Shown here in pieces: positions 3,560 to 62,491 of a DNA stretch of 64,000 nucleotides. The notes beneath the pieces were generated by a model that did no database searches, had not been told where the DNA came from, and saw only the letters and a list, made by a program, of their open reading frames with translations. Position numbers and translations under genes: made by a program. How positions within the stretch are numbered: the first letter of the stretch is position 1; each line of letters begins with the position of its first letter. The stretch is from Beroe forskalii (lineage: Eukaryota > Ctenophora > Nuda > Beroida > Beroidae): the NCBI GenBank assembly GCA_011033025.1, contig WFMF01000365.1, positions 1 to 64,000 of the forward strand. Reading direction: 5' to 3'.

Positions 3560-3771
3560 CACTTAAAGTTAAATTATTTATTTTCATTCACTTAGACGCA
3601 CACTTTTTCACTCACTTTTTGGCCTTGTGAAAGGCACAAGTTTTTGGATATTGTGAATTATTTGGCTCTCAGGTCAGATCTGAAAACGCTACTGATCCCC
3701 AAGCAAAAGTTCCTTCCTTCACCCTGACCTTCTTCCGTGCTAAAGGACCGTCAACTGGGGATGACGAGGTT

Positions 3772-5784: not shown

Positions 5785-5846
5785 TCCACACTCTTCTTTC
5801 TGCTTCTTCACTCCATGGATACGTCCCATCTATCATCACCTGAACA

Positions 5847-6690
5847 TTGCCAACGCCAGCGGCATCCTTGGGCAAAAAATCAGACGATCCTGAGTTCACG
5901 AAAATCCTGCTGACTCATAAGATTGTCTGCCTCCAAGAAACCGTATCAGAAGTAAACATCGAGGGCTACAAAGCATTCAGTAACCTCCGCAAACAGGGCA
6001 AAGGTGGTGGAGTAACAACCTTGATAAGTAATGACTTGCTCCATCATTGCAAGCTCATCAAGTTACCCAATGATAAGACCACATCAGCAAATTTAGTTGT
6101 AGTCAAGTTTTATAACCCAGCCACTAAAATACGGACCTTTGTTGTGAATTGCTACATCCCTCCTTCCAACAGTGTCACTAAAGGGGTAAAGCATGACTCC
6201 TCACAGAATTTTGACTATCTGCACACCACTATCAGCAGTCTTCGTGAACAACCAGATGACGAAATACTGCTCTGTGGTGACCTCAATGCCAGAATTGGTG
6301 ATGCTTCAGGCTACAACGATCCTTCTCTTAGCAGATCCGACTTCCACCCTGATGCTGACAATTCAAACAGCGCAGACTTCATCGATGAATCTGCGCCTTG
6401 TCTCTATCCACAGATCTAGCTCCGATCAAGGCACTAACAGTCATAAGAAGCTTTCTCCTTGACCTTGTCGGATCCCAGAACCTTATAGTACTTAACGGTC
6501 GCACTCTTGGTGACTGTGCTGGAAAGTACACATGCTTCAAGTGGAATGGAAACAGCGTTGTTGACCTTTTGTCAGCTCTGGTAGCTTCACACATCGTATC
6601 AGAATCTTGTGGTAGCTAGTCACACTCTCTTTTCAGATCATAGCCCTGTTATCCTTCATCTTTGGAATCATAGCCCGGTTATAACACCAA
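5847..6690 (+). pseudogene. LINE ORF2 endonuclease domain (broken)
   Basis: APE-type endonuclease of element A in at least three frames. The catalytic Glu block reads VCLQETVSEV (about 5928). The middle shows GGGVTTLIS and the Asp/Asn block LLCGDLNARIGD (about 6270-6305). After a frame change near 6395, GRTLGDCAGKYTCFKW appears at about 6500-6545, and after another break the catalytic His block FSDHSPVIL at about 6633-6660. All expected active-site blocks can be traced, but no single frame covers them. It nicks target DNA in intact relatives. Confidence 0.8.
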
Positions 6691-6893
6691 CAAAAGCTCC
6701 TACTCACTTCGAGCCTGCTCCTTTCCAAATACAAGATCACTCCTGAAGGTCTTGACAAGTTTCAGAACATTCTCAATACTCAATCAATCCTAGCCCAGAT
6801 AGAAACCCTCAACGAACGGCTTACATCAGATAACATCAGCAGTAATGAAGCTGAATCTCTCAATAAGGATATCTTGTCCCTTTATCAATTCAG

Positions 6894-8280
6894 TTGCTGG
6901 TGAAAGCTTTGATATTCCCAAAACAAAGTGATAAGAGTAAGCCAAAGCATGAAGCATGGTTTGACCCTGCCTGTCATACAGCCAGAAGACTTTTGAAACG
7001 ATCTATTCGTGTGATGGACAACAATCCTGATAACACAAGTATAAAAGATCGACATCGTCTCAATGTCAAAGATTATCGAGCCATTGTGGAGTCTAAAAAA
7101 GATAAGTTCATTCGTAAACTGAGTGAAAAAATCAAAACAGGAAAGGTATTGTCCTGGAGAGACTTCAAGAAGCTCAAAAAATACAAGCAAAAAGACATCA
7201 AACTTGACGAATCCGAACACCTTGATAACTTTCAGAAGTTCTATGCTCAGCTCTATTCTGACGAGCACCCGACTGTTGATCAACTGACTAAGCAGGCTCT
7301 GCTCAATGATGCCGTAGACACTGCCAACTCCAGTCTACCTGATGAAGAGCTCAACAAACCATTCACAATGGATGAACTGGAAAACGCCATTAGCAGCCTC
7401 AAATCAGGAAAAAGCATCTTCATTCGACCACATCAGCAATGAGATCATCAAGGCACTCAATGCTGAAATGCTCCATCTTCTGCTCAATCTTTTCAACATC
7501 TGTCTCAAACTGGGTGTCTACTTCTGGAGCCAAAGTGTCATTACCCCGCTTCACAAGAAGGGCTGTACCTCTGACCCTGACAACTACAGGGCTATTGCTG
7601 TTTGTAGCTGTGTTGGAAAACTCCTTTCCCTGATGCTTCTGAGTCGCTTGATAAACCATCGTGACTCAAACTTTCCCGACCCTCCTAACCAAGCAGGCTT
7701 CAAGAAGGGTAGCCAGTGTAATGATCATATTTTTACATTGTTAACACTGATGGAAAAGTACAAAAGAGTCAAGCAAAAGGTCTATGCTGTCTTCATTGAC
7801 CTGAGAAAAGCCTTTGATCTTGTCTGCCGTCAAGCATTGCTCTTCAAGCTTGCCTGCTATGGAATAAATGGCGGTTTCTTTAACATCATCAAAAGCATGT
7901 ACAGCTACTCTTCTGGAAACATCAAAATCAACAACAAGATCAGCAAAAGCTTTTGATATTTCCAAAGGGACAGAACAAGGTCACCCTCTTAGCCCTGAAC
8001 TCTTCAAAGTCTATTTTCTCAAGCTTTCCAAGTTGCTCAACGAATTGGACGTCAACTGCCCCACCTTATCTGGTCTGAAAATATCACATCTTTCATGGGC
8101 TGATGACCTTGTTATCCTTAACATTTTAGATACCCAGTCACTTCAAAAACAACTTAATGTTATTGAGAACTACTGCAATGCCTGGGGTCTCTACCCAGTT
8201 AATATCTCTAAAACTAAGTTCATGGTTATGAATGGACTCTATCCTCCAAGTGCCACCTGGAGGCCGGTGGATCATTAATG
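6894..8280 (+). pseudogene. LINE ORF2 linker and reverse transcriptase (broken)
   Basis: The linker (6894-7430) is lysine-rich, with WFDPACHTARRLLKRS as in LINE ORF2 proteins between EN and RT. RT follows in the next frame: SVITPLHKKG and NYRAIAVCS (7537-7610), NQAGFKKG (about 7690), and motif A as VFIDLRKAFDLV (about 7792-7830). After a further frame change come GTEQGHPLSPELF (about 7968-8005) and the catalytic block WADDLVIL (about 8098-8120), with Trp where Tyr/Phe is usual. WGLYPVN..KTKFMV ends the palm. Frame changes near 7430, 7950 and 8270 inactivate it. Confidence 0.85.
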
Positions 8281-25795: not shown

Positions 25796-26081
25796 TGAAA
25801 ATCATGTTGTAGCCAGTTCAAAGGACTTGGAAGTTCCCTAGTAACAATAGTCACTACTCAAAGTCAAACTGAAACTCCTCCAAATCCTCTGGGTTTCTGA
25901 TAAGAATATGCAAAAGCCACAGCCATCAAATGTGTTCCAATGCATCTTCAAACCAAACTGTCTGGCTTTGAATGTCCTCTAGACAATGGCTGGTTCAATT
26001 GGTTCCAAAATCAACTGCTAACATGAGCAATGCACAAAAGGTTGTTGTCCTCTAGAAACAAAATCAAAAAGAATATCCAGA

Positions 26082-26837
26082 TTGAATTCAAAAAGCATGA
26101 AAATCATTGTTGGGTTTAGGACTGTTGCTCTGCGTGATCAGGCTGAATGCATACTTAACTCAACTAATTCATTGCATTCACTGGGCTATCAATTAAAACT
26201 TGCAACCAAGATGTTACCAAAAATAAGTTTACATAATGTCCTCAGTGAGGTCCTTGATGATATCGATAGTAATGATAATGCTACTGTCACACGCTCTCTT
26301 GAAAAATCTGTTATCATAGACAAAATCCTCTCTAAGAATCCTTGTATCAAGGCTTTGAATGAAGCTGGTCATACACTTGATGTTGTTTATCTCAATAAGA
26401 ATCCCAATAATTTGCTTACTATTGGACTCAAAGTCTCACCAGCTATCAGGTCTGCTGTATTACTTAATCAACGTGGAAATGTTTATCTAGGAAATAGTAG
26501 ATACCAGTTTCGTGATAGATTCCACTTTAAGCACTGTTATCATTGTCAAATGGTGGGCCACATTTCTTCAGACTGTCTGATAAAGATAAACCTGCTGTCT
26601 GCATGTTTTTGTATGGAAGGTCATAGGTCAAATTCATGCCCTGTAAAGGAGATGCTAAAACATAGCTGTGTTCGGTGCTTGGCATCAAAACATGGGAGTG
26701 ATGCAGAGAACTACAAGACCCACAATTCTGGTGATCTAAGTTGTCCTGTTTTTGAGCGTGAGATTACAAGACTGAAAGAAAATACTGATTTCATGTCAAA
26801 AAAACGTGATGTGATAGATGGTCCAGAAAAAAGTTGA
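26082..26837 (+). pseudogene. LINE ORF1 zinc-knuckle part
   Basis: 251-residue frame. About residues 85-150 look like the RRM-like fold of gag-like ORF1 proteins (LTIGLKVSPAIRSAVL; GNVYLGNSRYQFRDRF). Three Cys/His clusters follow: CYHCQMVGHISSDC, CFCMEGHRSNSCP and CVRCLASKHG. It ends overlapping the start of the endonuclease frame. CCHC knuckles bind RNA in the LINE RNP. Confidence 0.75.
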
Positions 26838-33429: not shown

Positions 33430-36400
33430 TCAACCTGGCATTTTTGGAATATAATGATCATGTGAGATAGAGTTCTCAACAACAAACTTGACATGACTTC
33501 TGAAGGCTTGTTTTATTTCTTTATCACCAAAAAGGATGAGAAGCATATAGCAGCTGTAGTCAATGTCATGAAATTGTTCCATAAGTGCATTTCGTGTGGT
33601 ACCAGCAAATGCTTCACACTCAAAGAGTTTATGAACACACGAGTCTTCTTGAATATCACAATCTTCACAGTTACTTTCTTGACTTCTTCCTAGAGCCAGG
33701 CTAAAATCATTAAATCTCAAGCACCTTCCATGCAGAAAATCAAGGATATCAGATGTATTGCTTCTAGTGTCCCATCGATTTAGCAATGGTATCTGAACAC
33801 AGTTCAAAGTTCTCACAGCCTCCTTATGTGTAATGTCTGGATATATATCTTTTCCAATAAAATGTGGCAAGTCTTCTTTGCTGATGATGTCTTGATCCCA
33901 CTTGAAACACTGATAAGTGAGCATAGTTTCTTTTGAGTATAGAAGATCTTTATCAGGGATATCAGCAATGCTAATTGATCTGTATGATCTCATACCATAC
34001 TTGTGAGCCATGTATTGTCTCATCCACACTGTGTGCAAGTAATAAGAATGGCTAGGGATTTCTTCAATTTGCAAGACAACTGCCCTCATTGAATCATCTG
34101 ATGTAAGTGCTTTTAAACAGAACTTCAAAGTGACCAGTTCTAGAATGAGGGGCAAGGGTGGGATGTTTGTAGCAACTTCAGCTATGACTTTAGGGGTGTA
34201 AAACTGTGACCCAGTAATTTTCAGGAGTGATTTTGCCATAAAATTTTTGAATATGTCCATGTTATTATGGAGCCAGACTGGTGCTGCATACAAAAGTTTT
34301 GGCAGAACTGCAGTTTTGAACAGAATGGCTAATGTCATGGTGTTAAGCCCTTTCTTTCTAGTAGTCTTGTAGGTAAGACATTGCCATTTGTACCAGCAAC
34401 CTTTGAGCACATATTTCGCATGATGTTCGTACTTCAGTTCATAATCAACATACACTCCAAGAACCTTGCTTTTCTCAACGTAGTCAACTTCTTTTTCCCC
34501 AATTCTTAATCTAGGCACTTGGCTAGTTGGTGACACACTTGATTTGACAATGATGGACTCGGTTTTATTCTTTTCACAGTTAACAATCAGTCTCCATTTT
34601 TCACACCATGTATGTAGAAAGTTACAGGCCTGCTGCATAATTGTATAACATGATGAAACTGACCTAGCAATAACCAATATACTGCCATCATCAGCATATT
34701 TAAAGCAATGGATTTTACTTTTTAGTTGTTCTTCCATTTCTTTTGGGCATAGCAAATCAGATATATAAATAATGAATAACAGGGGTGAGAGAACCGACCC
34801 TTGTGGCAAACCAAACATCCCCACCTTCCTTCTTGGACCAATGTAATCATTAATCCGAATCATTACACTTCTTGTGACAAGAAAGGAATGTATCAGCCTA
34901 AGGAAGTTGCCAGCAATACCAAATCTGTGAAGTTTTACAAGCAATGAAGCTGTGGGAACAGAGTCAAAAGCCTTTTCAAAATCAAGGAACAAAAGCATAG
35001 CTGTCATCTTTCTTCTTCTGGCTTCAGCAATTGCAGTATTCATTTTGTAGAGGTATCTGGTGGTATTCCTATGGGGAAGAAAACCCTCTTGAGCCTCATC
35101 AATGATCTTGTTCTTTTGACAAAATTTCAGGAGGCGCTTCTGCAGCACACGTTCAAGAATTTTACCAATGTATGATGCCAATGAAATTGGGCGATATGAT
35201 CCTGGAACAAGGTATGATTCTTTGTTAGGTTTCCTAATGAATGATACCATGGAACAGTCCCAAATCCACTGACCTTTTGTTAGAATCAAATTGTACAGTG
35301 CAGTAAGGAATGCAATTGCAGATTTAGGAAGCTTTTTAAGGATTAAAGGATGGAACTTGTCACCATCACAACATTTTCCAGATGTTTTTTGAGAAGATAT
35401 AGATTCTGATACTTCATTATATGTTATTTCATCATTCATGAAGGAAAAATCGTCATCAAGAACCTCATTTTCATCATAATTGGTCTCCCATTCATTTTTT
35501 ATGTCCTTGAATTCAGCATCAATTATTTCTGCATGATTTTTGTCAAAAGTTGCATCCTTGAGATGTTCACCAGTGAAGAAAGTATCAAACAAGAGCTTTT
35601 CTTTTTCCTCTTCATCATAAACTAGGGTATTTCGATTTTTGCTTGAGAACAGATGGCTAATAGTTGTTCCTTCTTGCTTCACAAACTGTTTTTTGTATCT
35701 CTTCCAGAATTCTAAAGAATCTTTATGATTCAGCCCATCAAGTTTTTCATGAATCCACTGGTTTTTCTCTTGAATGAGACTGTCCTGAAATTCTGTTTTA
35801 CATTGATTAAGCACAGCTTTATTTACTGGATCTGATCTTTTTTGGTACTCTTTTTGGGCATTTTGTAAATCCTGTGAGAGCTTAGATAATGTAGTTGACC
35901 AGAAAGCCTTAGAGTGACAACATACTGTTTTCTTTGGTATGAAGAGATCATTGCAGGTTTGGACAGTTTTCAAGAAAAAGTCAGAGAGGGTTGATGGGTC
36001 ATCACTCTGAGTTTCATCATTAAGTTTTTCACTGAAGATATTCTCCATTTCTTGAGTCCATGATTCCCAATCTGCATCATCATAGTTTAGGGCAGTCTTG
36101 CGAATGTTTCTTTTGTTCCCATTAATCTGCAGGGTCTGAAAGACAGGGATGTGTCCTCTTGCTGGTGCTCCTGTGAATAAATTAAAACAATGTTCATTCC
36201 ATGGAGCTGACAGTGCATTTGTAACATCACCAAAAGACAGGGCTAGGTCAATAACACTTCCACCCTTGGCAGTGAGGAAGGTGTTTGCTCCTGATGAGTG
36301 CAAGCACACATTATCTCTTTCTTCCACAAAGCTACTTAGTAGCTTGCCTCTTGCATTTGTTGTAGAGTCCCCCCAGTTGTCACTTCTTGCATTGAAATCA

Positions 36401-36861
36401 CCCAGGGCAATCATACTCTTGATTCTCTTTGCCTTGCACCATTTCCATGCATCTTCCAGGTTTGTCAAGAGTTGTTTCAGAGAATTAGTTGAATTAATCT
36501 CCGGGCGGCAATAACAAGATACAAACATAATTCCATTCTTATTTATAGAACACAGGTTATACACAGCATCAACCTTTGCTACTGAGAGTTCTTTAACATG
36601 TTCTGGCATGTACTTTGGACTGATAGCAAGACCAACACCCCTATATCCATGATGCCAGGATGAAATCATTCCATTGAAAACATCATTTTCTAGATCATTT
36701 GTGCCACTGCCCACCTCTTGTAGAGACATGAATTCAATAGTGTTCTGTTCAATGAATTTACCAATGGCTATCTTTGAATGGCTAGATAGACCATCTACAT
36801 TTAGTTGACACATTGTTATTGTATTCTTGACATTACTCATCATCAAGTGAAACCCTGTCAC
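33430..36861 (-). CDS. LINE ORF2: endonuclease-reverse transcriptase
   Basis: 1,143 residues. The APE-type endonuclease covers about 1-250: CQLNVDGL (about 18), the catalytic Glu in MSLQEVGS (about 49), ALGDFNARSDNWGDS (about 153), GGSVIDLALSF and the catalytic-His block GHIPVFQTL. RT covers about 510-780: YRPISLASYIGKILERVLQ, motif A LLFLDFEKAFDSV, motif B GLPQGSVLSPLLF, and motif C FKYADDGSIL with both Asp intact. A Cys/His cluster CEDCDIQEDSCVHKLFEC sits near the C-terminus. No RNase H. The ATG cluster at ORF2's start overlaps the end of ORF1, which suggests coupled termination and reinitiation, as known for two-ORF LINEs. All catalytic residues look present, so the enzyme could be functional. 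Confidence 0.95.
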   Translation of the reverse strand: MTGFHLMMSNVKNTITMCQLNVDGLSSHSKIAIGKFIEQNTIEFMSLQEVGSGTNDLENDVFNGMISSWHHGYRGVGLAISPKYMPEHVKELSVAKVDAVYNLCSINKNGIMFVSCYCRPEINSTNSLKQLLTNLEDAWKWCKAKRIKSMIALGDFNARSDNWGDSTTNARGKLLSSFVEERDNVCLHSSGANTFLTAKGGSVIDLALSFGDVTNALSAPWNEHCFNLFTGAPARGHIPVFQTLQINGNKRNIRKTALNYDDADWESWTQEMENIFSEKLNDETQSDDPSTLSDFFLKTVQTCNDLFIPKKTVCCHSKAFWSTTLSKLSQDLQNAQKEYQKRSDPVNKAVLNQCKTEFQDSLIQEKNQWIHEKLDGLNHKDSLEFWKRYKKQFVKQEGTTISHLFSSKNRNTLVYDEEEKEKLLFDTFFTGEHLKDATFDKNHAEIIDAEFKDIKNEWETNYDENEVLDDDFSFMNDEITYNEVSESISSQKTSGKCCDGDKFHPLILKKLPKSAIAFLTALYNLILTKGQWIWDCSMVSFIRKPNKESYLVPGSYRPISLASYIGKILERVLQKRLLKFCQKNKIIDEAQEGFLPHRNTTRYLYKMNTAIAEARRRKMTAMLLFLDFEKAFDSVPTASLLVKLHRFGIAGNFLRLIHSFLVTRSVMIRINDYIGPRRKVGMFGLPQGSVLSPLLFIIYISDLLCPKEMEEQLKSKIHCFKYADDGSILVIARSVSSCYTIMQQACNFLHTWCEKWRLIVNCEKNKTESIIVKSSVSPTSQVPRLRIGEKEVDYVEKSKVLGVYVDYELKYEHHAKYVLKGCWYKWQCLTYKTTRKKGLNTMTLAILFKTAVLPKLLYAAPVWLHNNMDIFKNFMAKSLLKITGSQFYTPKVIAEVATNIPPLPLILELVTLKFCLKALTSDDSMRAVVLQIEEIPSHSYYLHTVWMRQYMAHKYGMRSYRSISIADIPDKDLLYSKETMLTYQCFKWDQDIISKEDLPHFIGKDIYPDITHKEAVRTLNCVQIPLLNRWDTRSNTSDILDFLHGRCLRFNDFSLALGRSQESNCEDCDIQEDSCVHKLFECEAFAGTTRNALMEQFHDIDYSCYMLLILFGDKEIKQAFRSHVKFVVENSISHDHYIPKMPG

Positions 36862-39085
36862 TAACTACTTTTTTGTAGACACTACAATCCTTGGACACAG
36901 CAGAATGATTACCTTTACAGTTGGCACATTTGAATTTACTCGTATCATTAGTCTTCTTTATTTCACAATCTTTCTCTTCATGATTTGCACAGCAAAAGGG
37001 ACATGCCCTGCTTTTCAAACAATTTCTAGCTATGTGGTTGAAAGCAAAACATTTATAGCATTGAATCAGTCTTTTCTTCACTTCATAAGGCCTTGTTCTA
37101 TAAACTGTGTTCCCTAATAGGAGTCTTTCTTCATTTGCTTTCTCTAAATCAGACTTTGATTTGAATGTTAGAAGAACGATATGTGTGGGGCCATTCTTAT
37201 TTTTGAATCTTCTTGCTGCAGAGTTAGGGAATAGCTTTTGAAGTTCTTTTGTTAGGAATTCATCTGACAGTTCTTTGTCTACATCTTCAATGATTGCTTT
37301 TGCTTTGACATCTTCGAGAAGGTGAGCATATGTGTTTTCACTTGTTCCATTGTTGAAGAATTTAGAACCATCCCAGTTAGACACTACTTTTTTGGCATTT
37401 TGAACTGAATCAACTTCAACAAGAATAAAACCATTAATTGTTCTTTTGCAGTGTATAATTTCCATTCTTGGGAAACACTTGTTAAAAGAAGACTTGATTT
37501 TTGCAGAGTTTGATAAGTGGGCATCATTCACATTACCAATGCTAATGGTTTTAGTTGTGTCCATTTCATTTTGGGTCTTCTTTGTAATCTTGAGTGGCTG
37601 AGGCTGAGGGGGACTTGTACGTTTCACAGAGTTTGTCATTGTTGGAGAAGTTTTAGGTTTATTTTTGGCCACAACTGTAGACCATGATGTAGTTGCAGGA
37701 TCTGTCTCTAGCATATCATGTGCAGAGTTCATGGTTCCAAGTATATCATCTAATTTTGCTTCCATATTGACTACACATTTGTTTGAGCATGTGTCAAATG
37801 AATCAGAGCTCTGTGGATGGGATATGGATGGGATGTGGTCAGCAACCTTCAGAGCTAACTGCTCAACTGTTGAGGGAAGAAGAATTTCTTTGTTCATCTT
37901 GTCTGATGAGAGGCTCAAATTTGAGGCAAGTGCAGTCACATCAATACTGTCTAAACGATTAGCCTGACTAACAACAGTATCTAAGGCAGCTTCATATGAA
38001 GCAGTAGTAGCATTTAACGAGTTTTCTATTTCAGCTAATCTTTCTGTGGTCTTATCAACGGAATTCTGAAGGCAATGAACTGTTTCTCTTACATAAGAGT
38101 GGCCCATTGATTCAGATGAAGCTTCCTTGAAGTTAAAATTCTGATCCAACTCACTCAAAATCCTTTCAATTTCATTAACTGAAAGCTGCAGAGCACTTAT
38201 AGTAGACTTCTTAGGCTGTTGCTTTCTATAAGATTGGAGCTCCTTCATAACATTTTCAGCTAACACTTTGTTTGATTTCTCCATTTGTTTGTTATGGGTT
38301 TCAACAAGTGCCTTAATGTCATCAATTTGTTTAATTGTGTCACTGGACTTTTCTAATGGAGGCTTCTTCTGCAGCATAATACATTTGGGGCAATAAACAC
38401 AGACAAAACTTGGTGAGTCTTGAAGTGCATTGAACAAAACTCGTTTCATTGGTTTATTAGTGCAATGATTATGAAAATAACAGGAGCAGTTTGAACACAT
38501 AAGACCTTCTCCAAGTGGACCATGGCCATGTAGCACCTCCTTTAAGCAAACCACACAAGGGTACTCTATTGATTGTGGCCTCACAGTGAGTTTGTGTTTG
38601 CCATCAGAAGACTGAAGGCCTAAGAGTTGTGATGAGTCTTTATCAAAAATTGCAATAACATCACCAGGAATTATTTTCCTGAAATTAGCAATGTAGGTGT
38701 CACTGTAGTTAAGAGTTTCAATCATTTTGGTTACCCCCAAGTTCTCAGGTACAGAAAGCTGAAATAGTGAGAGAACTAACTTAGCCTGAGCAAAATTGAG
38801 CAGACTCAGCTTGATAGCAATGTTAGGTAATTCGTCATTAAGAACACTTACAATGCGAGATTGATCTTCACTAACATCTTTGATGGGTTGATCAGGAGAA
38901 TCATTAGTGGACAAGTCTTTGAGTTCATCACTCTGCCGCACTACTTTATTACAATCAGATTCATGGTCATTCGCCATAACATAGTCATTGCCTTGTTCAT
39001 TGACCTGTAATGATGAACTAACCGAGGCCCCAATACCCTCTACCTCAACATCCTCATCCTGCACCATGACACCCCGGAATTCCAC
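36833..39085 (-). CDS. LINE ORF1: PHD-finger and CCHC RNA-binding protein
   Basis: 750 residues. The acidic N-terminus is followed by a PHD-like finger at about 177-235 (CVVCLKEV, CSNCSCYFHNHC, CVYCPKC). A long helical, coiled-coil-prone region covers about 245-420. Two RRM-like segments at about 510-670 follow, and the end (about 675-735) holds three Cys/His knuckles: CYKCFAFNHIARNC, CPFCCANHEEKDC and CKGNHSAVSKDC. PHD fingers and CCHC knuckles are known in ORF1 of CR1-like and Jockey-like LINEs. The role is RNA packaging, with PHD possibly guiding chromatin contact (inference). It overlaps ORF2 by 29 bases in another frame. Confidence 0.92.
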   Translation of the reverse strand: MEFRGVMVQDEDVEVEGIGASVSSSLQVNEQGNDYVMANDHESDCNKVVRQSDELKDLSTNDSPDQPIKDVSEDQSRIVSVLNDELPNIAIKLSLLNFAQAKLVLSLFQLSVPENLGVTKMIETLNYSDTYIANFRKIIPGDVIAIFDKDSSQLLGLQSSDGKHKLTVRPQSIEYPCVVCLKEVLHGHGPLGEGLMCSNCSCYFHNHCTNKPMKRVLFNALQDSPSFVCVYCPKCIMLQKKPPLEKSSDTIKQIDDIKALVETHNKQMEKSNKVLAENVMKELQSYRKQQPKKSTISALQLSVNEIERILSELDQNFNFKEASSESMGHSYVRETVHCLQNSVDKTTERLAEIENSLNATTASYEAALDTVVSQANRLDSIDVTALASNLSLSSDKMNKEILLPSTVEQLALKVADHIPSISHPQSSDSFDTCSNKCVVNMEAKLDDILGTMNSAHDMLETDPATTSWSTVVAKNKPKTSPTMTNSVKRTSPPQPQPLKITKKTQNEMDTTKTISIGNVNDAHLSNSAKIKSSFNKCFPRMEIIHCKRTINGFILVEVDSVQNAKKVVSNWDGSKFFNNGTSENTYAHLLEDVKAKAIIEDVDKELSDEFLTKELQKLFPNSAARRFKNKNGPTHIVLLTFKSKSDLEKANEERLLLGNTVYRTRPYEVKKRLIQCYKCFAFNHIARNCLKSRACPFCCANHEEKDCEIKKTNDTSKFKCANCKGNHSAVSKDCSVYKKVVSDRVSLDDE

Positions 39086-39137
39086 GGGTTAAAACAGCCA
39101 GGTACAGGGGAGGTTGGTCTAGGGATGTGGATCTTAG

Positions 39138-51115: not shown

Positions 51116-51289
51116 CATTCGAACTTGAAACACCAAACTTCACACATCTAGATTTACCCACATATTTAGGTTTTGTATTTATCAACCAATTAAAACAAAT
51201 GACAGCACAAATAAAGACCAGTCAGCTGTAAGGTTCGGCCTCAAATTCTCACAGAATTCCCGTCGCTTAACTCTTCTTTCTCTCGTAGT

Positions 51290-54200
51290 ATGTACCTCCT
51301 GCTGGTGTTGCTCTGTTTGGCTGCATCAGCTGTCTCGGAACACTGCAAATTCACCGTCACCCCGACTCAAGTGTTCTCGTGAGTGGCTACAGATTCTTCG
51401 GAATAATTATTGATTTCGTTGTTGCAGCTCAGACACAGAAACGATTTTATGGCAAATCCATGCACCCATGCAGCGTTCTATCTATCAAATTAATCTCACC
51501 ACAATTCTCTAAAAATGGAATTCGTTGCCATTTTCTTTTCAATTAAAACATGTTTATGGCTTCAATTAACAGTCTCTTTTCAGGAGTCTGAGTTCGCTTA
51601 GGATCGGTTCTACTTGCACAGATTGTGACATTGTCTTGAAGAAATGCTACCCATCTGTGGAGCTGAGGTTTGTGTATTTGATGAATTCTTTTCACGCAGC
51701 CGATTGAACCCAACATACCCAAGTAATTCATTAACTAAATTCCATTTTCAATCGTGTTGTTCGTCGAAAGGTGACGGCCCTCCTTGCGATAAACTTCGAG
51801 TGAATCTGTTTCGTCGTGTTACTTTGAGCGACATAACGGTGGACAAACCTCCAGAAGCAGGAAAAATAAAATGCACGCGAGACCTACTCCGAAGATAACC
51901 CAAATAAGTTCCTCACTTCCCTCGACGTCCATAGCAACACGTCCCAGGTGCTCTTTCGCTCCTGATACATTCACGTCCGGTAACGCATCCCGGTCCAACG
52001 GCAACGCTCCCTTATTATCTGATAACCGTCCTGATTCTCTTGCCATTTTATGCTTATTTGAGAGTCGGAAATGGCGTAAGAACAGTGCCACGTCGTTTTG
52101 ATTATGAATGTTATTTTCTGAAATCAAAAGTTAAATGCGTTCAACTGTGTCCCGATTCGGTGCAAACATTCAACAATCATGTAACAAAATGAGACCTCGT
52201 GGATTCTACAGTCCATAATGTGAACCTGTCACATGTCTCATTGAACTTGATCCTTCCAGGAATAAAATGCGAACCTTCATTGTCCCGATACAAAGCTCGT
52301 GACTTGTACATAGGCACACGACACACGTGACTTCGTAAGTATTACACTGGAGTTTCATCCGAAGTTCCAACTGAACGTTTCTGAATCTTAAAGTCATGAG
52401 GGTAGGGTTATAAATTGCTGTTTCTATGGAATTGGCACTACATTGTTCATTGAAAACTTCATGAGGGCACCGCTTATGGCTAATCCCGTCTTAATGGCGG
52501 TTATTGAGTGGTGTACACACACGAAGTTCTAAGAGGATCGAAATGTTGGATTTTGAAGTTTGAAATGAACTACTTCATCCGTTGTATGAAGACGCAGTCC
52601 TTCAACTTTTCAAGGGTCTGTTAAGTGTCAGCTCAAAGCTGGCCATTCAAGTCGTAACTTCGTAAGAACTGCCCTGAGGAGTAAGAGCACTAGGATGTAT
52701 GAGTGTTGTCTCACGCGTGCGGGCCGGACCTCCGTCTGCCGTTGTGACTCAAGCCCTCCGGAGTTCCGGTTTTCCTGCAGAGGGGTGGGAAGATGCTGAG
52801 ACAGGCGAAAAAGATGACAAAGAACACAGCCCCTGCAAAGGAACCTCCACCATCTCGTCCATTCCCTCCCCCGTTTCCTGGGTCTCGTTGAAAGAATGGG
52901 ACTTGTTTTTCAACAGTTTTGCGGTGTCCTCAACACGTGACATAGCTCACTAACTTCGGAATGTTAGAGTTAAAAGGTCGTGAGAATCATTTCCTATTTA
53001 TACAATTGTCGTTCTAAAATTAATGATACAGAACATAATATCAATTTGAAAGATTTCTGCGACAAATTGCTCGCATTCTCTCACAAGACACTATGCTCGG
53101 AAAGTTAAAATGTAAATGAGAGCCAGAAAATTTAAAAAGAATACTATCAAGACTATAATATTGGGCTGCAAACCAAACTTAGATTAACATAAAACAATTG
53201 AAAAAGTTCCCGAAATTGGGTTGTTATCTAAAAAGATTATCGCAGCATCATTTGAAATATTGTATTGTTAACTTGAATTCAGCTAATTACACCCAGCAAG
53301 GGTGAATAAATATGTTGTGCCTAAGCAACAGGCACATCGAAACTACAATGAAGCTGCCTCTACTTTCAATCAAATACAAGCCACATTGGGACATGTACCG
53401 TTATGTTCCACTGATATACCGCGTGCCTGTTCTCAATCAGTCTTCCTCATAGCCCTTATGGCTAATATTATTATGAAACAGTATTATGAAAATGCTGTTG
53501 ATGTCATATGAGGGCACTGTTCTCAAATTAATTCCTGTTGAATTTCCTAAATTGCTCGCAGTTCGCGTGAGGAAGCTTTCTGCTTGTGTATTTATCGTTT
53601 TGACTTTTTTGATGAGGTCTTTCATCTTTTCATGGAATCAATATTTTTCAATTCTCTAATTGCCGCCGAAAAGCTTCAACCGGTTCACAGTACATATTAC
53701 ACACTCAACTGAGCGTTTGAGTTAAATCACTGGTGGATGTGATCGATCAGTTCACAGTGTGGTGATTAGATGTCCGTGGTGTATTTGTCGCAATCTTCTG
53801 TCACTTTGAACTCTTCGGTGATTTCCCTGGCCTTGCTTGGGCGACTCCTCCTGCCTCCGATTCCGTTGTAGTAACTCATGGGGCTCGGTGGGGAACGACA
53901 ACACGGTGGACAAACCTGCAGGCAGATGTAGAGGAACATGAGGACCATGGAGCATACGAACAGGACTATGATGAAGTCCTTCGAAGTTCCCTTGGACGCC
54001 AAATCCTGTGATTCCCCTTCCGATATTATCGGTGCATCGGCGATGGGATTATCCGACATAGCTTCAAACCTGCGTTTAGAAAGTTCTAAGATAACGAACT
54101 AAGTGAACGGCTCTATACTTTAAGTCGGAAATCGATACATTGAACTATAATCTCACTGTAAAGCTAAAAAGTAAATAATGGAGAAATCACACAAAATGAA

Positions 54201-57200
54201 CGCCCTGATGGTGTATATAATGCGTACTACTGTGGCCGGGCACAAGACGTTTACTCGAGTGTAACCACACTGGTTATGTGGTACCATGACACCGAACTAA
54301 ATCAAAGCCCCACATTGGTGTACATCATCATGGAATTCAGTTGGTCTTGGCTAGTGAATAGTAAAATCAAGAGTCCAGGCTTGAGCCTAGAGGGTATTCT
54401 CAATGAAGGAATGTATGAACTCCTGAATAAGACATACTGTCCGTTTAATAGTTTAATGTCACTAGGTTTCTGGATAAAAATTCAAATGCATCATGCAAAA
54501 AATATTCGACTATCTGAGGACTTCAAAAAAGGGGTCAGATTTGAGTTTTGACCTCTCTTTTTATTTCTTACTTGAAAACCTTTTTCAATATATTTTAGAT
54601 TCAGGATATCTTGTGATTCAGCATTGAATGAGAATCATTGGTCCCTGTAGCACCACTAACAACATTCTCAAGGATCCCATATTTTCTATGGTGGATGTCG
54701 CGAGTTCTGAGAACGCTTTCTGAAATCTCCACGTGACTTGTACATATGAACCGATGAATGTGCGTGATGCCGATTAAACAACATATCCATGAGGCGTACG
54801 TACAAGGTTCCACGAGACTTGGAAATTTCAGAATGATCCTCGATTCTCGAACTCATCACACCCGTGTATGTATACACTTTAAACTATAGAACTATATATC
54901 CTTAGTGTGCACGGTGCTCGGAGTGTGGAGGGGTACGTGGACTGGGGGGAAGCTGACCCGGACACCTGCCAGACACTGGGGGAACTTAACCTCACCTCCA
55001 TCCTCCCTGTCACAGAACACCACATCCTGGTGTCCGTCCTGCCTCAACCCTGCTCACCGGACTACGAGCCTCTACACGTCCCCATTAACCCCCTGCTATT
55101 CACGGTATATTATTTTTAAGAATTAAGAAATTGTACACATTGAATAGATTCAGCGCTAACCCGGTTCTTTGACCGTGGCAATGTACTGCTATAGATGTTT
55201 TTTTTGCAGAATTTTGGCTCTTTAGTATGTATGTATTGTCCAAAATATTATAGCCAATGACTTTTAATAAAATACCTGAAGTTCCATGATATTTATAATG
55301 ACCCAGATCAGTATTCAGGTTATTATTAAACCCCTCCCCTCACAGAATGTGGCATCCGACGTACCATTGCCCCTTTCCAACGTAACGTACGACTCCAACT
55401 TCCCCTCCTCCCTCTCCCAACCCAGTTCCCCGATCAGTCTCTCGTACGATGCAACCAGTGACAAGTTCCTCTTCTCCCACCCCTCCCTCTCAGCCCTCAT
55501 ACAGTTCGATGGGATCCCAGCCTCGAACTGCAGTGCGGTGAGTTTTATTCGTGATAGAATCGAAGAGAAGAGTTTATGGTAGACAAGGGAAATACCTGCT
55601 TTGAAAAAAGTTGTATTGGTAAATGGTCATAGAATAATGTTTGATAAAAATAAATTAAATATAAATTGAACAGATTAAATAATATATAATTGTCCCTGGA
55701 GTCATGAATAGTTATCAATATCTATGTTGAATATACCTTAATCAAATCATAGAATCCAATTTCTAAAACGTGGCAAGAATGGCAATCTTGAATCTATAGA
55801 ACCTTGAAAATATTGATTAAGTTCTTGAAATATCAAAGTAAATATTACTATTGCTCCTGACTGATAAGTATTTGCTGTGATAAAGCTCAACTCCATTTAA
55901 CAAATTGTCCAATAAAATGATGATATCGCAATGGATTAAAAACAATACAGTGTACACAATATAATGATCATGTCGACAACATCGAAAATAAAGCTGGAAT
56001 AACAGAATATATTCAAACTGCTACTGTTCAAAAAACAGTGTAACAGCATGAAATTAAATTAAATCAAAACAGTTTAAAGTATTCCATCATAAAACTGATA
56101 GTTTGACATATCTGGTTAGTTCATATTTAGTCTATAACAAATGCGTATAATCGATGTCTCACTGCAGTGTATGAGTCAGTCCGGGGATGGGGCCTGCTGG
56201 ATAGAACGGAAGTCCGTGTTGGTTGGGGGATACAGGAAGGATGGAGTGATTGGGAGGGAATGTGAATGTGGGGCTTGTGGGAGGGCACAGCAGTCCTGGG
56301 CTTGTAGCTGGGAATGGTAGGTGTCCTGGATCAGCAGCAAGGAAGTAGGAGGGTTGAAGTGGAAACCAGGGGTTTCCAGTGTGGTGGGCTGAGAAAGGCA
56401 TTGGGAAGTACTGCACAGACGCCGTGGTGGTCTGGTACTGACCCTGTGAGGGTTTACGTTGGAAAGAACTAAAGATATATTAACTTTTTGATATATATCA
56501 TGGCGATGGGATATATTGTCGTGATGCTGCACTAAGGTTGGCACTGCCAACAACAAGTCGTCTAGCGAGGTAACAGGTATCAGGAAGAGACAAACACTGA
56601 AAATTCTCACTTACCGGGTTTGTTCTTCCCCCACACTTGCAGCAACTCTCTGAACCTCTGTACCCGGAGTCTCCTGATTCCTCTCCATCCAGCTCACAGT
56701 CAGAGTCAATCCAGTCAGCACAAGAGGCCTCCTCCACTTGGCTGCTCTCAGAGCTGCCCTTCCTGCTGAACTTACGTCTCCTGAAAGCACGTTTAAACAC
56801 AATGTTCTGTCCCCGCCTGAAGGGAAGGACACTCTTCTGGATGAGGTCCTCAGCCTGGATTTCCCCTGTTTCGTCACCTGTCATGTCAACGAACCCGAAG
56901 CCTTTGGAGACACCCTGTCCGTCTCTCATCAGCTTCACATCAACTGAAATGTTGAAATGTGATTGGTCAGAAACAAATCCTGATTTGTTATTTTCTAAAC
57001 ATGTAATTTATGGAGTATAAATCATACGATTGTAGAATTTGAACACAACTGACACCAGATATCCATTATTCCCTTAGTCACACTCACCTGGCAGATAGCC
57101 CAGATCGCTCAGGAAGGAGAAAATCTCTTCCTCGGTGATGTCCGTTGTGAGATTCCCAACAAACACCCGATCCTTGTACACCACAGTCATCATGTTCTTA

Positions 57201-60200
57201 GCTGGAGGGATATTATGGGTTATGATAAAACTGCTGTTAAAGTTAGTTGGTGTCAAGGTTCAATGATGTCAAGATAAATTGGTTTCAATTAAAAAACTAG
57301 TGTTAAAGTGAAATTGGTGCCAAGGCTGGAAAGTAAGTGGAAAGATGATTTGGTGTTGACACTAATTCAAACCATAAATTGGAAGAACAAATTTATAACC
57401 GGAACCCCTTCATAAACTGCAACCAAAAGTTTTGCGGTCCAAAACCGCATAAAACTCAAACTATGGATACTGAATGTCCCCTAAATAATCAATGCAAATT
57501 TGAAGAATATCAGATGCATGTGAAAGGTATTCTTTCAAAAATCAGGCGGTATGTTTGAATTCAATTTTGTTATTTTTAGTACATCAATGATGATTGATGC
57601 TAGCATTTTACGGAGAAGTGTGAACTCGATTATTTTTACACCATACTGCTACGTGCAAAAATGTAAATTGATTGTGAAATGTGGGAAAGTTGAGATATTT
57701 GTCGTGAAAATTGAATTAATGTGAGTTTTTCATATAAAAAGTGAAAGAGCAATCTGTTTTACAGCAAGTGAAAAATAAGCAAATAGACCACCTACTAAAT
57801 CGAACGATTAGTTTTTAGTAAACCTTGGTGATCAAAAATATCGAAAAATCAAATGACCATGAATGCTATTCGAAGATTATTGTAAATTTTTGTAATCGCA
57901 AGATAATCGAACAAGCATGCATTATATTAATTCGGAATGTGCACACTCGTTATCATCAAATTGCTATCTTATTATCAGGGGTGTTACTGATAAGCTGATA
58001 AGAGTACACACGCACACTACAATACAAAGCTGAGTCTGGCTTTTAATTATATAGGGTTACCAGTCCAAATTTCACTGCACGAACCACCAGGCCCAAAATA
58101 TGATACTGTAAAATTGTATTTGAGTTGAACTTCCGTTTTCCACTGGTGATAAGAATAACGCAGTGTAAATGGTAGTGCTCTAGTGTACTACTCAGTTGTC
58201 TTTGCAGGTTTCGGGGGAGTCCCCAAAGATCTATGAGGTGTCTTCCACTCAGTTGATACTTCTTCAAAACGGATCCCTGACCATACTGGTGGCAAGCAGC
58301 AAAACGCGCATTGCCTCTGATCAATGTTTCACTCATGTGACTGTCAGCTCTGACTTGTACGATAGGAAGATGTTTGCAATATCTCGTGAGACAACCAATG
58401 GATCTCTGGTTCACAATGCCATATACAAGTGAGCCATCCAGTAAAGGAAATTTCTAGTAGAATTTGAAATAGGCTTCAGTGGTGGTTCAGGCTCAGTGTC
58501 AAACAAAGTTTGCATAAAATATGACACCAATTCACTACTTTTTGAAACATAATTCAATGAAATTTTTGTTCATGCTTTTTACACAGTAGTCAGTACATAC
58601 ACAAATATACAATCACGAATTCTCAGTGTTACAACATCATCGGACGTAACGAAGCTTCTGGGTGACGATGCAATTACTGTCAGAAACGTGGAAAGCTACA
58701 AATGCATAGGTAAACCACCTTATTAGCTGAAATAACTCGGAGTGAGAATTTATCAAACATTCAAACTTCATTTTTGTGTCGTAATTACCAACCCCTACTT
58801 ACGTTGCATTGCTACCCGGACCCCTCAGACAGCACGCAGCAGAGTCTCTCCACCAAGAGGCTGGTGTTCCTGGACCTACTCAGTGTGGGAGGAGAGCAGC
58901 TCGTTCTCTACGAGCAGCAGATAACTGCCCCAACCACCACCTACCACTCCCTCCTCGGGAACCGCTGTAACCGCTTCCCTGCCACTGTGGCGGCCGTGTC
59001 CGTCAAAACCCCGCTGAGCGACGTATCGGCTGGTGGAACGACGGTTGTCGTCACTAAGTTGGTCCCGATAGCCCGGGCGTCACCCCATGTTTTAGCTGTG
59101 GGGAGTGTTGTGTTGTACTCGCCGTGTTTGGGGTGTGCCTGGTATCTGCTGCCTGTACCGCATAGTCCGTCCCAGGAGTATATCGTGGCTACTGATGACG
59201 CAGGTACAATAAAACTGAACAAGTGAGATTGTGAGAAGTAACTTACCTCGTAGCAAGGAAAATAAATGTCTTCTGAACTTGTGATTTGCCAAATTTAGCG
59301 AAAAAACGTGGTACCTTTATTGTTAGATTCAAGTATTCATAATCTCGTCTCTTCACCCAGGAAGGTACGTGATCCAGGTATCCAACTCGCTCTACTACGG
59401 TCACTACGGCGAGTGCATCAAGCTCTCCGAGTACTACATCCTCAACTCCTTCTCGCCTGCTGACGTCATCAAGATGAAGCAGAACTCTGAGGTGGTGCTC
59501 ACTTCCTTCCACGATCACTTCGGGAAGATAGGGCAGAGCGACACCGTCCTGGATTTGCGGGATATCGATCACGCTGTCAGTGCTAGGCAACTCGCGGAGG
59601 GGGTCCTTGATGGTAGGTGTGATCATCATTGATGTGCATGGTTGTTCTTCAGCCAATCTATTGCCTTTTCATCTTCCGACACATTCTGTGTATTTTTATT
59701 TGCACCGAATTATGATGATTCTGTGACAGCTAAACCTGTTCCACAACCTGATCATCTTTTTGACGCAACTTTGTATAGCCAGTTGGATGGATGCTACTAT
59801 TTTCAGGCGTTCTGCACAAGAAACTGTCTGTAAGTGTGTGTACCGACGATTCTCCTTTCTACACCAGGATGTCTTCGTTAGAATACAGCCAGCCATACCG
59901 ACATGAGGTAGGTCATACAAATTAAAAGTTGTGTCTCATCATTGCGTTTTAAATTTCATGATTCAGGAACTTCTTTCACAACTTTGCAACTCCCCACCGA
60001 GTTAGTCCAAATCACGCATATATATCTCTGTGTACAGGAGAAGTGCTACTCCAACTCAATACCTGATAGAGCCTACCTGGAGTTGGGAGAATCCTACTCC
60101 ATGCACGTAGACTTCTCCCCTTACGCTCCTGAATCAGCTGACATGGGTAAGTTACAAAGTGCTCACTGATTCACTCTATGGCTGATCCTGAGAAATCTTA

Positions 60201-62491
60201 CTCCCACATTTCTAACCCATCTTATCTTGATATCATCAATAGCAAGATTAAACTCAATCTCCTATCTAGACTATTTGCTGACTGAATCTGAAGTTAGCGT
60301 GAATGTCTGGAACGGATCCCTGCTAGAAGTTGAGATCAACAAGACAGTTGACTACAGGACTCTGCAAGTTTCATTCGAAGTTACGATATCGGATATCGGA
60401 CGAGCTGTGCGCGCAAAACCAGGTTTAAAATCGTTTTTCTGCTTAACCCTATCCGCGACAGCTCCTAAGTAATGTACTTTCCATCCATTCTTTGTTCTTT
60501 CCTTCTTCATACTTTGATACTTTTTGACATATAAGTACGGCGATTACCAATTATTGTCCATTTCTCTTCAACCATCAATTCAGGTGCAAGTCTGACCACT
60601 GTTAACGTGGCTGTGATACCGAGTCAAATCCTCCCTCTTCCCTCCTTCCATGTTCTTCTCGGATGCAAGCCAGGTAGCTGCTTACTGCTAAGATGTCAAA
60701 CACATCACGTCTTTGCGTTTGAGATTCGACGGATAACTGATGATGCTCTCTAAAATGGATGAGTTTCTCCCAAATTATCAAATTTATATTACCTTGCCTG
60801 GATCAGAGTCCCCGCCTCTCAAAGTCTAAATAACTTTTTTTTAGGTCAGAAAGTATCTCTGAGCCGACAGAACACCCCTCGACTACTGCCGTCCACTACT
60901 GATGACGTGATACACGTCCAGTTTGAGGACGTGTTCCGTCCTAGTTTCGATGTGGTGGACCTGGTGTCTGGTATCAGTAAACCCTACCAGGGTAACTATT
61001 CCCTGCTCTTCACTGGAGCTGGACAGTCTGTCGAAGAAATCGTCATGTTCAGGTATGAGGATCGGAAGGAAGTTAGGACCAAGAGTTCGCTGAATCACTG
61101 GTATAACCATTTCAAATTTTGATATTGTCCCAGTGTTTTGCCATCGCCGTGCATCGGCCATTCGGCCAATATTCTTCTGTGTTACTTACCAGTGATGCAA
61201 CTGATCAAGAACTCAATTTGATTGACTCAATTTGATTGACTCAATTTCAGTGATGATGAGAAAGATAAGTTTAACACTGATGGGGGGCCAACCGGTATTT
61301 GGAACTGGAAAGGTGCTTCCGATCAGCTTCAGGTATAGTTTCAGAAGAATCAAAGTCATGGCTTGGGGGATTTCAGTTGATAAATTTCAATGCCAATGCA
61401 TAAATATTTTTCAATAAATTCAATGTAACTTTCGTATAATTTGATAAACTTGATCACGTGACCGTGTTTCCAGATGAAGTGGCTGTGCAGAGAGTACAGT
61501 GTATGTGCTAACGTGTACCCCAGACTATTGGACGGTGTTCCGAACTACTGCTTCAACGTTCGCTTCTCAAACCAACAGTTCGCTTCCAACGATTCTTACT
61601 GCGTTTTTGAGGTATTTCTCTTGCACCTCAAAGAGTTGATTGTGATAATTTGTTCCCACAAAATTCACGTCTTTGAGGTAAAGAAAAATTAACAAATCCA
61701 TACAGCTTCAATTATTGCAAATTCTACAAAATCTTTCGGACTTGCAAAGAAAATTAATACCTGACGAACATCTTCCTCAGGAAGATTTCAAGATTTGTGT
61801 GCACGGCCTCCCCCTCGGAGTATGGCAGAGTCTCATTGTTCTGTCAACTTTAGTGGCAGCTGTCATGGTCTATGTGTTCCTTCTGTTCTGCAAGGAAAAC
61901 GGCTGTAGAGCATTCTTCGTGAGTAGTGGCTTTGCAGTAGCTTACTATATTTGATTTGCTCCTATATTTGATTTACTAACTTATTTTCATTTCCTTGGGA
62001 GTAATATGTTTGGTCTGTATAATGCTAGAAGCGATAAAATGCAGCACAATCAACTTCAACCTCTTCTTATTGCAGGAAGAACTGCACTTGTTAGCTCCGG
62101 AAGAGGAATGTGTAGAAGAGGAACATGCCAACTTCATGAGGGAACAGATGCTGAATCAAATGAATATGAAGAGACAAAGCAGTATGCTACCGAAACGTAA
62201 GTCAGCTTTCCATGGCCTCTTTTAGTCTTCCTAGACTTCGGGGATTTTGCTTTTTTGTTAAGTTTTCTCTAAATAAAGAAATGCTCTGAGATTTGTCCCT
62301 TTTCTTGTGATATATGATTTTAATATGCCAACCATTCTTATTGAACTTCAGCTCGGAGATCGAGTATTGTGGAAGACATTAGGACTATACAAAAAGTCCG
62401 GAGGAAGTCGACGACCACTGGATCTCTGGCTCCCTACAACACGCTATCTCACCTTGTCCGAGACAGGTCTAAGACCAAGGTGGACATGTAG
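51290..62491 (+). CDS. CATSPERD/CATSPERE-like: CatSper accessory subunit, delta/epsilon type
   Basis: About 19 exons: 51290-51378, 51584-51667, 54906-55104, 55346-55537, 58208-58428, 58594-58709, 58829-59203, 59361-59612, 59730-59829, about 59868-59911, 59967-60146, 60243-60422, 60584-60673, 60845-61052, 61251-61332, 61474-61611, 61781-61918, 62076-62196, 62352-62491. The product is about 980 residues (CATSPERE about 950, CATSPERD about 800). A signal peptide (MYLLLVLLCLAASAVS) is followed by a large Cys-rich ectodomain. The family stem signature runs PSFHVLLGCKPG, then FEDVFRPSFDVVDLVSG, GNYSLLFTGAG, MKWLCREYSVCANVYPR, and CVHGLPLGVWQS just before one membrane span (LIVLSTLVAAVMVYVFLLFC). 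The acidic/basic cytoplasmic tail is about 100 residues. It is an auxiliary subunit of the sperm-flagellum calcium channel. Phase agrees at all junctions, but exon 10 needs a weak donor and is uncertain. Introns 2 and 4 hold antisense genes. Delta versus epsilon cannot be decided by eye. Confidence 0.88.
51819..52046 (-). CDS. Small single-pass membrane protein with CPPxCR motif, gene 1
   Basis: 75 residues from an ATG at 52046, chosen for its A-rich AAAATGG context; the frame stays open upstream to 52127. The N-terminal half is hydrophilic (GALPLDRDALPDVNVSGAKE). Then comes one predicted membrane helix (LIWVIFGVGLACILFFLLLE), and immediately VCPPLCRSK. No signal peptide, so probably Nout/Cin with a tiny tail. 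The motif is shared with 53766-54059 and with a frame at 52690-52850. It lies antisense in intron 2 of the CatSper gene. Not a family I recognise. A downstream exon is possible, since the stop overlaps a GTAACA. Confidence 0.6.
   Translation of the reverse strand: MARESGRLSDNKGALPLDRDALPDVNVSGAKEHLGRVAMDVEGSEELIWVIFGVGLACILFFLLLEVCPPLCRSK
52690..52949 (-). pseudogene. Third CPPxCR-type membrane protein copy, split between frames
   Basis: An ATG at 52943 opens a 64-codon frame with a hydrophilic start (MSRVEDTAKLLKNKSHSFNE, containing two N-glycosylation sequons). In the neighbouring frame, about 52850-52690 gives GAVFFVIFFACLSIFPPLCR and a basic tail ending GRRRSGPHA. The membrane helix and FPPLCR match the VCPPLCR and VCPPCCR of its neighbours. 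The two halves do not share a frame, so this is a degenerate copy, or part of its start lies in an unseen exon (TTTGCAG before the helix is a possible acceptor). Confidence 0.5.
52950..53765. other. Part of CatSper intron 2, nothing recognised
   Basis: AT-rich; short open frames without domains. Repeated phrase CTTATGGCTAAT near 52478 and 53455. Confidence 0.4.
53766..54059 (-). CDS. Small single-pass membrane protein with CPPxCR motif, gene 2
   Basis: 97 residues, complete in one exon. A CGCAG acceptor just upstream of the ATG suggests a 5' untranslated exon. Acidic N-terminus (MSDNPIADAPIISEGESQ), one membrane helix (FIIVLFVCSMVLMFLYICLQ), then VCPPCCRSPPSPMSYYNG, a GGRRSRPSK basic patch and an acidic tail ending YTTDI. 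The cysteines next to the membrane could be palmitoylated (inference), and the last four residues could be a PDZ-type ligand (weak). A TATATA at about 54215 on this strand may be its promoter. Antisense in CatSper intron 2. No known family recognised. Confidence 0.7.
   Translation of the reverse strand: MSDNPIADAPIISEGESQDLASKGTSKDFIIVLFVCSMVLMFLYICLQVCPPCCRSPPSPMSYYNGIGGRRSRPSKAREITEEFKVTEDCDKYTTDI
54060..54905. other. Rest of CatSper intron 2
   Basis: Two open frames (54276-54551 plus, 54601-54877 minus) lack domains. The second overlaps a loose inverted repeat around TTTCTGAAATCTCCACGTGAC. No gene is supported. Confidence 0.35.
56159..57201 (-). CDS. BOLL-like: DAZ/BOULE-like RRM RNA-binding protein
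   Basis: Three exons on the minus strand: 57201-57088, 56943-56615, 56443-56159, in phase with each other. About 239 residues from the first ATG in exon 1; a further 5' exon is possible because an acceptor precedes it. One RRM at about residues 5-90: RNP2 VFVGNL, helix TTDITEEEIFSFLSDLGYL, then VDVKLMRDGQGVSKGFGFV with RNP1 KGFGFV, and GQNIVFKRAFRRR. The GVSKGFGFV block and the strand before it are the hallmark of the DAZ family. A Ser/Glu-rich linker with CCKCGG follows, and the C-terminal 95 residues are rich in Pro, Tyr, Phe and Gln, as in BOULE/DAZL tails. These proteins promote translation of germline mRNAs. Nested antisense in CatSper intron 4. Other single-RRM proteins (Musashi/hnRNP-type) are less likely. 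Confidence 0.75.
57202..58207. other. Remainder of CatSper intron 4
   Basis: AT-rich. Any upstream exon or promoter of the BOULE-like gene should lie here. I could not pick one out. TTGGTGTCAAGG-type phrases repeat loosely at 57247-57330. Confidence 0.4.

Follow-up and report, generated by a model that had tools for sequence, protein, structure and literature searches.

A CatSper gamma gene model from the ctenophore Beroe forskalii, with putative coding sequences on the minus strand of its two longest introns

Does a single CatSper gene extend over positions 51290–62491 of this DNA, which subunit does it encode, and do the minus-strand coding sequences lying in its introns imply anything more than the ordinary nesting of one gene within another? 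These questions are raised by one end of the window, that is, the whole stretch of 64,000 nucleotides analysed here (contig WFMF01000365.1). An initial annotation had placed there a CatSper gene of the delta/epsilon type, with small membrane proteins encoded antisense in intron 2 and a DAZ/BOULE-like RNA-binding protein encoded antisense in intron 4, and from the presence of two germline products it had suggested that antisense transcription might make the expression of the genes co-regulated or mutually exclusive. The locus was compared with Pfam, with PDB sequences and with the genome (216 Mb in 1134 contigs).

The host gene and its subunit identity

A spliced model of the host gene was built by hand and gave a single open frame of 957 codons in 19 exons, so that the gene bounds first proposed hold as a gene model. 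Because the splice sites were picked by hand as GT..AG and the exons were picked open, all 18 of the 18 introns are of the GT..AG type by construction. The features of the hand-built model, all on the plus strand, are as follows.

51290–62491, plus strand: CatSper gamma (CATSPERG) gene, spliced model with 19 coding exons and 957 aa
51290–51378, plus strand: exon 1, with a signal-peptide-like start that is hydrophobic by eye
51584–51667, plus strand: exon 2
51668–54905, plus strand: intron 2 (3238 bp, phase 2), hosting small membrane-protein-like ORFs
54906–55104, plus strand: exon 3
55346–55537, plus strand: exon 4
55538–58207, plus strand: intron 4 (2670 bp), hosting an RRM gene
58208–62491, plus strand: exons 5–19, with the C-terminal domain at residues 708–862 (model, Pfam and PDB)

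Introns 2 and 4 (3238 and 2670 bp, respectively) are the longest in the spliced model, and the remaining 16 introns are 38–241 bp in size, which corrects the earlier estimate of about 70–250 bp. The lower limit is set by the putative intron 9 (59830–59867, between exons 9 and 10), which at 38 bp is so short that the junction of exons 9 and 10 is doubtful.

The subunit was identified from the C-terminal part of the spliced host protein. The Pfam domain CATSPERG_C (PF22846) was recognized with an E-value of 6.7e-16 and a score of 59.2 bits against a curated cut-off of 27.6, and none of the domains of CatSper delta, epsilon and beta was found in this protein at E<=1. Two PDB sequences, 7eeb_F and 9ubw_F, were matched at E<=1; both are CatSper gamma 2, which we take to be that of the mouse. 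In the match to 7eeb_F (E-value = 2.4e-13), residues 707–862 of the host protein were aligned to residues 915–1084 of the chain, and in both proteins the C-terminal domain carries the motifs WLC.E.S.C and YC...HGLPL shortly ahead of the membrane segment. The CATSPERG Ig-like domain (PF22851) appeared in the correct order before the C-terminal domain, with matches below the cut-off (E-value = 0.1 and 0.033), and hydrophobic stretches, read by eye, lie at the places of the N-terminal signal and the C-terminal membrane segment. The host protein differs from 7eeb_F in being shorter (957 versus 1145 residues) and in having an N-terminal part that is unrecognizable by sequence. Judged from the CATSPERG_C and PDB matches, the host gene is CatSper gamma. 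The assignment to a CatSper auxiliary subunit was thus correct, whereas delta and epsilon are rejected, gamma alone having been matched at E<=1 in both Pfam and PDB.

When the CATSPERG_C profile was searched against the unspliced genome, two sub-threshold matches were obtained, both of them in the host gene (best E-value = 0.012), and no second copy was seen in this search. The domain passes the cut-off only with the exons joined, since the unspliced exons stay below it. Pieces of the C-terminal domain of CatSper beta were found on another contig (G000:C358:1981419-1983343; E-value = 9.9e-17 and 4.4e-5), the first of them with two internal stops, as if it spanned an intron; further members of the CatSper complex are therefore probably encoded in this genome. 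CatSper is described as sperm-specific (PMC6660944) and has previously been reported in ctenophores (PMC6660944; table in PMC4685580). No description of a ctenophore gamma subunit was found in the available portions of the literature on CatSper in ctenophores, and a CatSper gamma gene model from a ctenophore is supplied here.

The first four exons are a weak point of the model. They might belong to a different gene, or to several, and not all of them need be exons, in which case the nesting would in part be a plain interleaving of neighbouring genes. Neither residues 1–188 (exons 1–4) nor residues 189–542 gave any relevant family match in Pfam or PDB, lax thresholds included, and introns 2 and 4 are much longer than the others. 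The codon use of exons 1–4 also looks non-coding: their score of -0.151 is only the fifth of the six frames and is close to the median of the non-coding control (-0.153, from 59 stretches), whereas exons 5–19 score -0.025, the best of six frames. These scores come from a training set of 5823 codons taken from RRM-gene frames and are biased accordingly. However, exons 16 and 17, which lie within the C-terminal region recognized by homology, have scores of -0.135 and -0.134, nearly as low as exons 1–4, so that a low codon score is still compatible with coding. The splice phases agree at every junction of the hand-built model, and the 564 nt of exons 1–4 are free of stops in the proposed frame against 4–11 stops in the other five frames, with the proviso that the exons were chosen open. 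In addition, exon 1 has a signal-like start and exon 5 is without an early ATG. The length of the protein points the same way: 707 residues precede the C-terminal match with exons 1–4 and only about 519 without them, compared with 914 in the PDB chain. Based on these features of the model, exons 1–4 are likely to be joined to exons 5–19, and we regard a separate origin as rather unlikely.

Coding models on the minus strand of introns 2 and 4

The minus-strand coding sequences first noticed in the two longest introns hold as gene models, and these lie wholly within introns 2 and 4. They are listed here with a repeat that shares intron 2 and a polyadenylation hexamer that shares intron 4.

51819–52046, minus strand: tm3, 75-aa ORF with a hydrophobic stretch followed by CPPLCR; motif and short DNA match with tm1
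52711–52943, minus strand: tm2, broken or doubtful copy with FPPLCR; its ATG frame (52943–52749) differs from the frame of the hydrophobic stretch
53766–54059, minus strand: tm1, 97-aa ORF with one hydrophobic stretch followed by CPPCCR; relatives elsewhere in the genome
54691–54868, no strand assigned: copy of a dispersed repeat, about 170 bp, in the 3' terminal part of intron 2; at least 40 other matches in the genome
55544–55549, minus strand: the sole AATAAA downstream of the RRM gene in intron 4, no more than 12 bp away from exon 4
56159–57193, minus strand: single-RRM gene, 239 aa, spliced model with exons 57193–57088, 56943–56615 and 56443–56159

The RRM gene of intron 4 is supported by a domain match and by codon use. 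The Pfam RRM domain (PF00076) was recognized at residues 10–57 of the spliced protein with an E-value of 6.1e-10, above the cut-off, and the codon-use score of the model (0.061) is the highest of its six frames and exceeds the 95% point (0.051) of the 59 non-coding stretches. One of its introns lies within the RRM, at codon 36, and the next lies outside it, after residue 145. No second copy of the gene was found among 12 scored candidates in the genome. The flank at 55538–56158 is single copy in the genome, and a short repeat just upstream of the gene (57228–57325) has eight other matches, of 41–95 bases, on five contigs. Recent carriage of the gene by a transposon was rejected, as the flanks in intron 4 are either single copy or matched only over these 41–95 bases.

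The RRM protein resembles DAZ/BOULE proteins in having a single N-terminal RRM, a proline-rich tail and a similar size. According to the available part of a survey of the family, Boule/DAZ proteins are marked by RNP2 of the form PNR(I/V)FVGG and RNP1 of the form DRAG(V/I)SKGYGFV (PMC2904765), and the RRM of Boule is interrupted by at least two introns at conserved junctions (Shah et al., PMC2904765). In the protein of intron 4, RNP2 is KDRVFVGN, that is, FVGN in place of the FVGG of Boule; RNP1 is RDGQGVSKGFGFV, to be compared with DRAG(V/I)SKGYGFV, and its GVSKGFGFV is close to that of Boule; and the RRM contains one intron as against at least two.

With the RRM protein as query, DAZL scored 30.3 bits and ranked only 23rd of 56 PDB sequences by whole-chain score, behind proteins with multiple RRMs; among single-RRM chains it ranked first, 30.3 versus 29.2 bits for Ist3, per-domain scores covering the first five sequences. 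For the reciprocal test we used what we take to be the human BOLL RRM sequence. In a panel of RRMs, the RRM protein as query matched BOLL at 29.8 bits, ahead of ten RRMs of the genome. In the reverse direction, BOLL matched the spliced RRM at 29.5 bits, the lowest score of the 11 other panel members, and preferred all ten genome RRMs; these ten were drawn from the 12 loci of the genome that match BOLL best, which biases the panel towards BOLL matches. For comparison, BOLL matched DAZL at 99–100 bits, whereas the RRM protein matched either of them at only about 30 bits. When the BOLL RRM was searched against the unspliced genome, in which the RRM of intron 4 is split by an intron, none of the 75 matches (101 candidates scored) fell on the contig of the window; the best two single-contig matches resemble, by eye, Musashi RRM2 and RBM24/38.

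Membership in the DAZ/BOULE family is unsupported and probably to be rejected on the reciprocal test, RNP2 and the intron count, and on its sequence the product is a divergent single-RRM RNA-binding protein that is faintly DAZ-like. The coincidence of two germline products, on which the initial annotation had drawn, loses its support with the failure of the DAZ/BOULE identity; what survives of that identification is an RNA-binding protein with one RRM. A search of the literature for ctenophores, Boule and DAZ jointly returned only a review on vertebrate germ cells, as far as its available text indicates.

The small ORFs of intron 2 are a different matter. Two of the three are intact (tm1 and tm3) and can be retained as small membrane-protein-like ORFs, while tm2 is frame-broken. 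Against the genome, tm1 gave eight matches at E<=1, itself included: two on contig C887 (E-value = 1.1e-5 and 0.048), two on C309 (1.9e-4 and 0.0016), one on C388 (0.0022), one on C582 (0.24) and a weak one to tm3 (0.166). In all five matches on C887, C309 and C388, CPPxCR again comes after a hydrophobic stretch. An alignment of these five with tm1 and tm3, with start codons chosen by hand and tm2 left out, contains six positions that are invariant across the seven members. No clear host gene was recognized around the copies on other contigs, in the ORF lists of parts of those contigs, and neither tm1 nor tm3 has a significant Pfam match.

The minus-strand ORFs, and the small ones above all, could nevertheless be non-coding or decayed. 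When intron 2 was shuffled 1000 times with its dinucleotides preserved, 198 of the shuffles contained an ORF from ATG to stop of 97 aa or more, and the length of the tm ORFs alone is therefore within chance. By codon use, one of the other five frames scores better than tm1 and two score better than tm3; tm2 is broken; and, in a search of the minus strand for AATAAA and ATTAAA, no hexamer was found in intron 2 downstream of the tm ORFs, the matches at 54565, 54457 and 54449 all lying upstream of tm1. This explanation is opposed by the relatives of tm1 (E-value = 1.1e-5 and 1.9e-4) and by the invariant positions, the aligned members all being among the eight matches of tm1. Shuffling produced a CPPxCR motif in an ATG-to-stop ORF once in 1000 trials for intron 2 and never in 1000 for intron 4, a comparison for which the motif was chosen after the family had been seen. 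For the RRM gene, the significant domain match of the spliced model and its codon use both argue for coding. Taken as an account of the minus-strand ORFs as a group, absence of coding function is unlikely. The case for tm1 rests on its relatives elsewhere in the genome, and that for tm3 on the shared CPPxCR motif.

The dispersed repeat of intron 2 was recognized in a search with window positions 51700–54900, in which the matches fall at about positions 2988–3184 of the query. No Rfam family matched at its gathering score in 51290–62491. Acceptor-like sequences were observed at 51245–51290 and 57193–57238, immediately before the start codons of the CatSper gamma and RRM genes, respectively; they would fit either introns in the 5' UTRs or trans-spliced leaders, and the latter are described as common in ctenophores (PMC8527503).

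Nesting and the question of antisense regulation

The arrangement is probably best explained as a CatSper gamma gene that carries unrelated genes of opposite strand in its two longest introns, the genes most likely being independent transcription units. The pre-mRNA of the host would be transcribed through the nested genes and the long introns then spliced out, and the nested genes would use their own promoters on the opposite strand. Dedicated cross-regulation would be needless, while mild transcriptional interference might occur.

Such an arrangement is ordinary for a genome of the ctenophore type, and the present locus is a further example of a class already described. The genome of Hormiphora californensis has 2357 nested intronic genes in 1654 hosts, accounting for 12.24% of the exonic bases, and 1109 of the nested genes are flanked by a transposable element on one side or both (PMC8527503). 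As here, genes in that species lie within single introns of others; however, the Hormiphora set comes from an annotation based on Iso-Seq (PMC8527503), whereas the Beroe genes are sequence-based models. Host and internal genes are mostly of opposite strand in the animals studied, which is thought to lessen interference (PMC8467205). Short internal genes opposite to the strand of the host are likewise found in Drosophila and mammals, but these are typically intronless (PMC8467205), whereas the present RRM gene is split by two introns. The length of introns 2 and 4 might also reflect the presence of enhancers, which long ctenophore introns can contain: in one ctenophore studied, 69% of the loop-linked enhancers are reported to be intronic (PMC12221973).

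An alternative to independent transcription would be that the nested genes are germline genes whose antisense transcription represses or times CatSper gamma, or that CatSper gamma acts in this way on them. The models do show overlap on opposite strands, CatSper is sperm-specific (PMC6660944), and the RRM protein is faintly DAZ-like at 30 bits. Internal nested genes are, moreover, frequently specific to the testis in Drosophila, and testis-specific genes are over-represented among them in the mouse, a general leaning of internal genes towards the testis (PMC8467205). The transcripts themselves may also overlap: with the sole AATAAA that follows the RRM gene placed at the very border of intron 4 with exon 4, the 3' end of the RRM mRNA might reach exon 4 of CatSper gamma or fall within it, in antisense. 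Against this, the germline pairing behind the idea is unsupported, as is the membership of the RRM protein in the DAZ/BOULE family. Most ctenophores are hermaphrodite, so that a mutual exclusion between testis and ovary is hard to apply to them. Nesting is common with no function known for it, according to the available text on Hormiphora (PMC8527503), and although interference between nested pairs is recorded in Drosophila, mammalian pairs showed no added divergence of expression (PMC8467205). Antisense regulation is therefore very unlikely.

A still bolder version, in which the RRM gene would be a fast-evolving, ctenophore-specific, DAZ-related germline gene, with an mRNA whose 3' end overlaps exon 4 in antisense, in an old nesting that is conserved across ctenophores and serves to time the expression of the sperm channel against that of a germ-cell RNA-binding protein, strikes us as extremely improbable. 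If the nested pair proved to be both conserved and regulatory, it would provide a test of the function of nested antisense genes in early-branching animals.

Other elements in the genome and the window

A mitochondrial contig of 13.3 kb in the assembly carries a diverged COX1, in which TGA is read as Trp. Eight of its 11 listed ORFs were scanned: six were identified as COX3, CYTB, ND1, COX2 and a pair of antiporter-type ND frames, the other two gave no match, and ATP6 had no match among the eight. No tRNA was detected by ARAGORN, a program poorly suited to mitochondrial tRNAs of unusual form. The contig thus appears ctenophore-like in sequence, the mitochondria of ctenophores being described as fast evolving and devoid of tRNAs, ATP6 and ATP8 (PMC6991124).

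Retrotransposon-like sequences were observed at three places in the window. On the minus strand, a LINE-type retrotransposon occupies 33430–39088, with a frame of 1144 aa that contains reverse transcriptase and endonuclease; a frame of 751 aa upstream of it showed only a zinc-finger match, below the cut-off. On the plus strand, retrotransposon-like frames extend over 3631–8278, with a SAP-like match below the cut-off in 3631–5781 and a reverse transcriptase at 7318–7953, and a further frame of this kind, at 26022–26837, has a zinc knuckle at 26022–26834.
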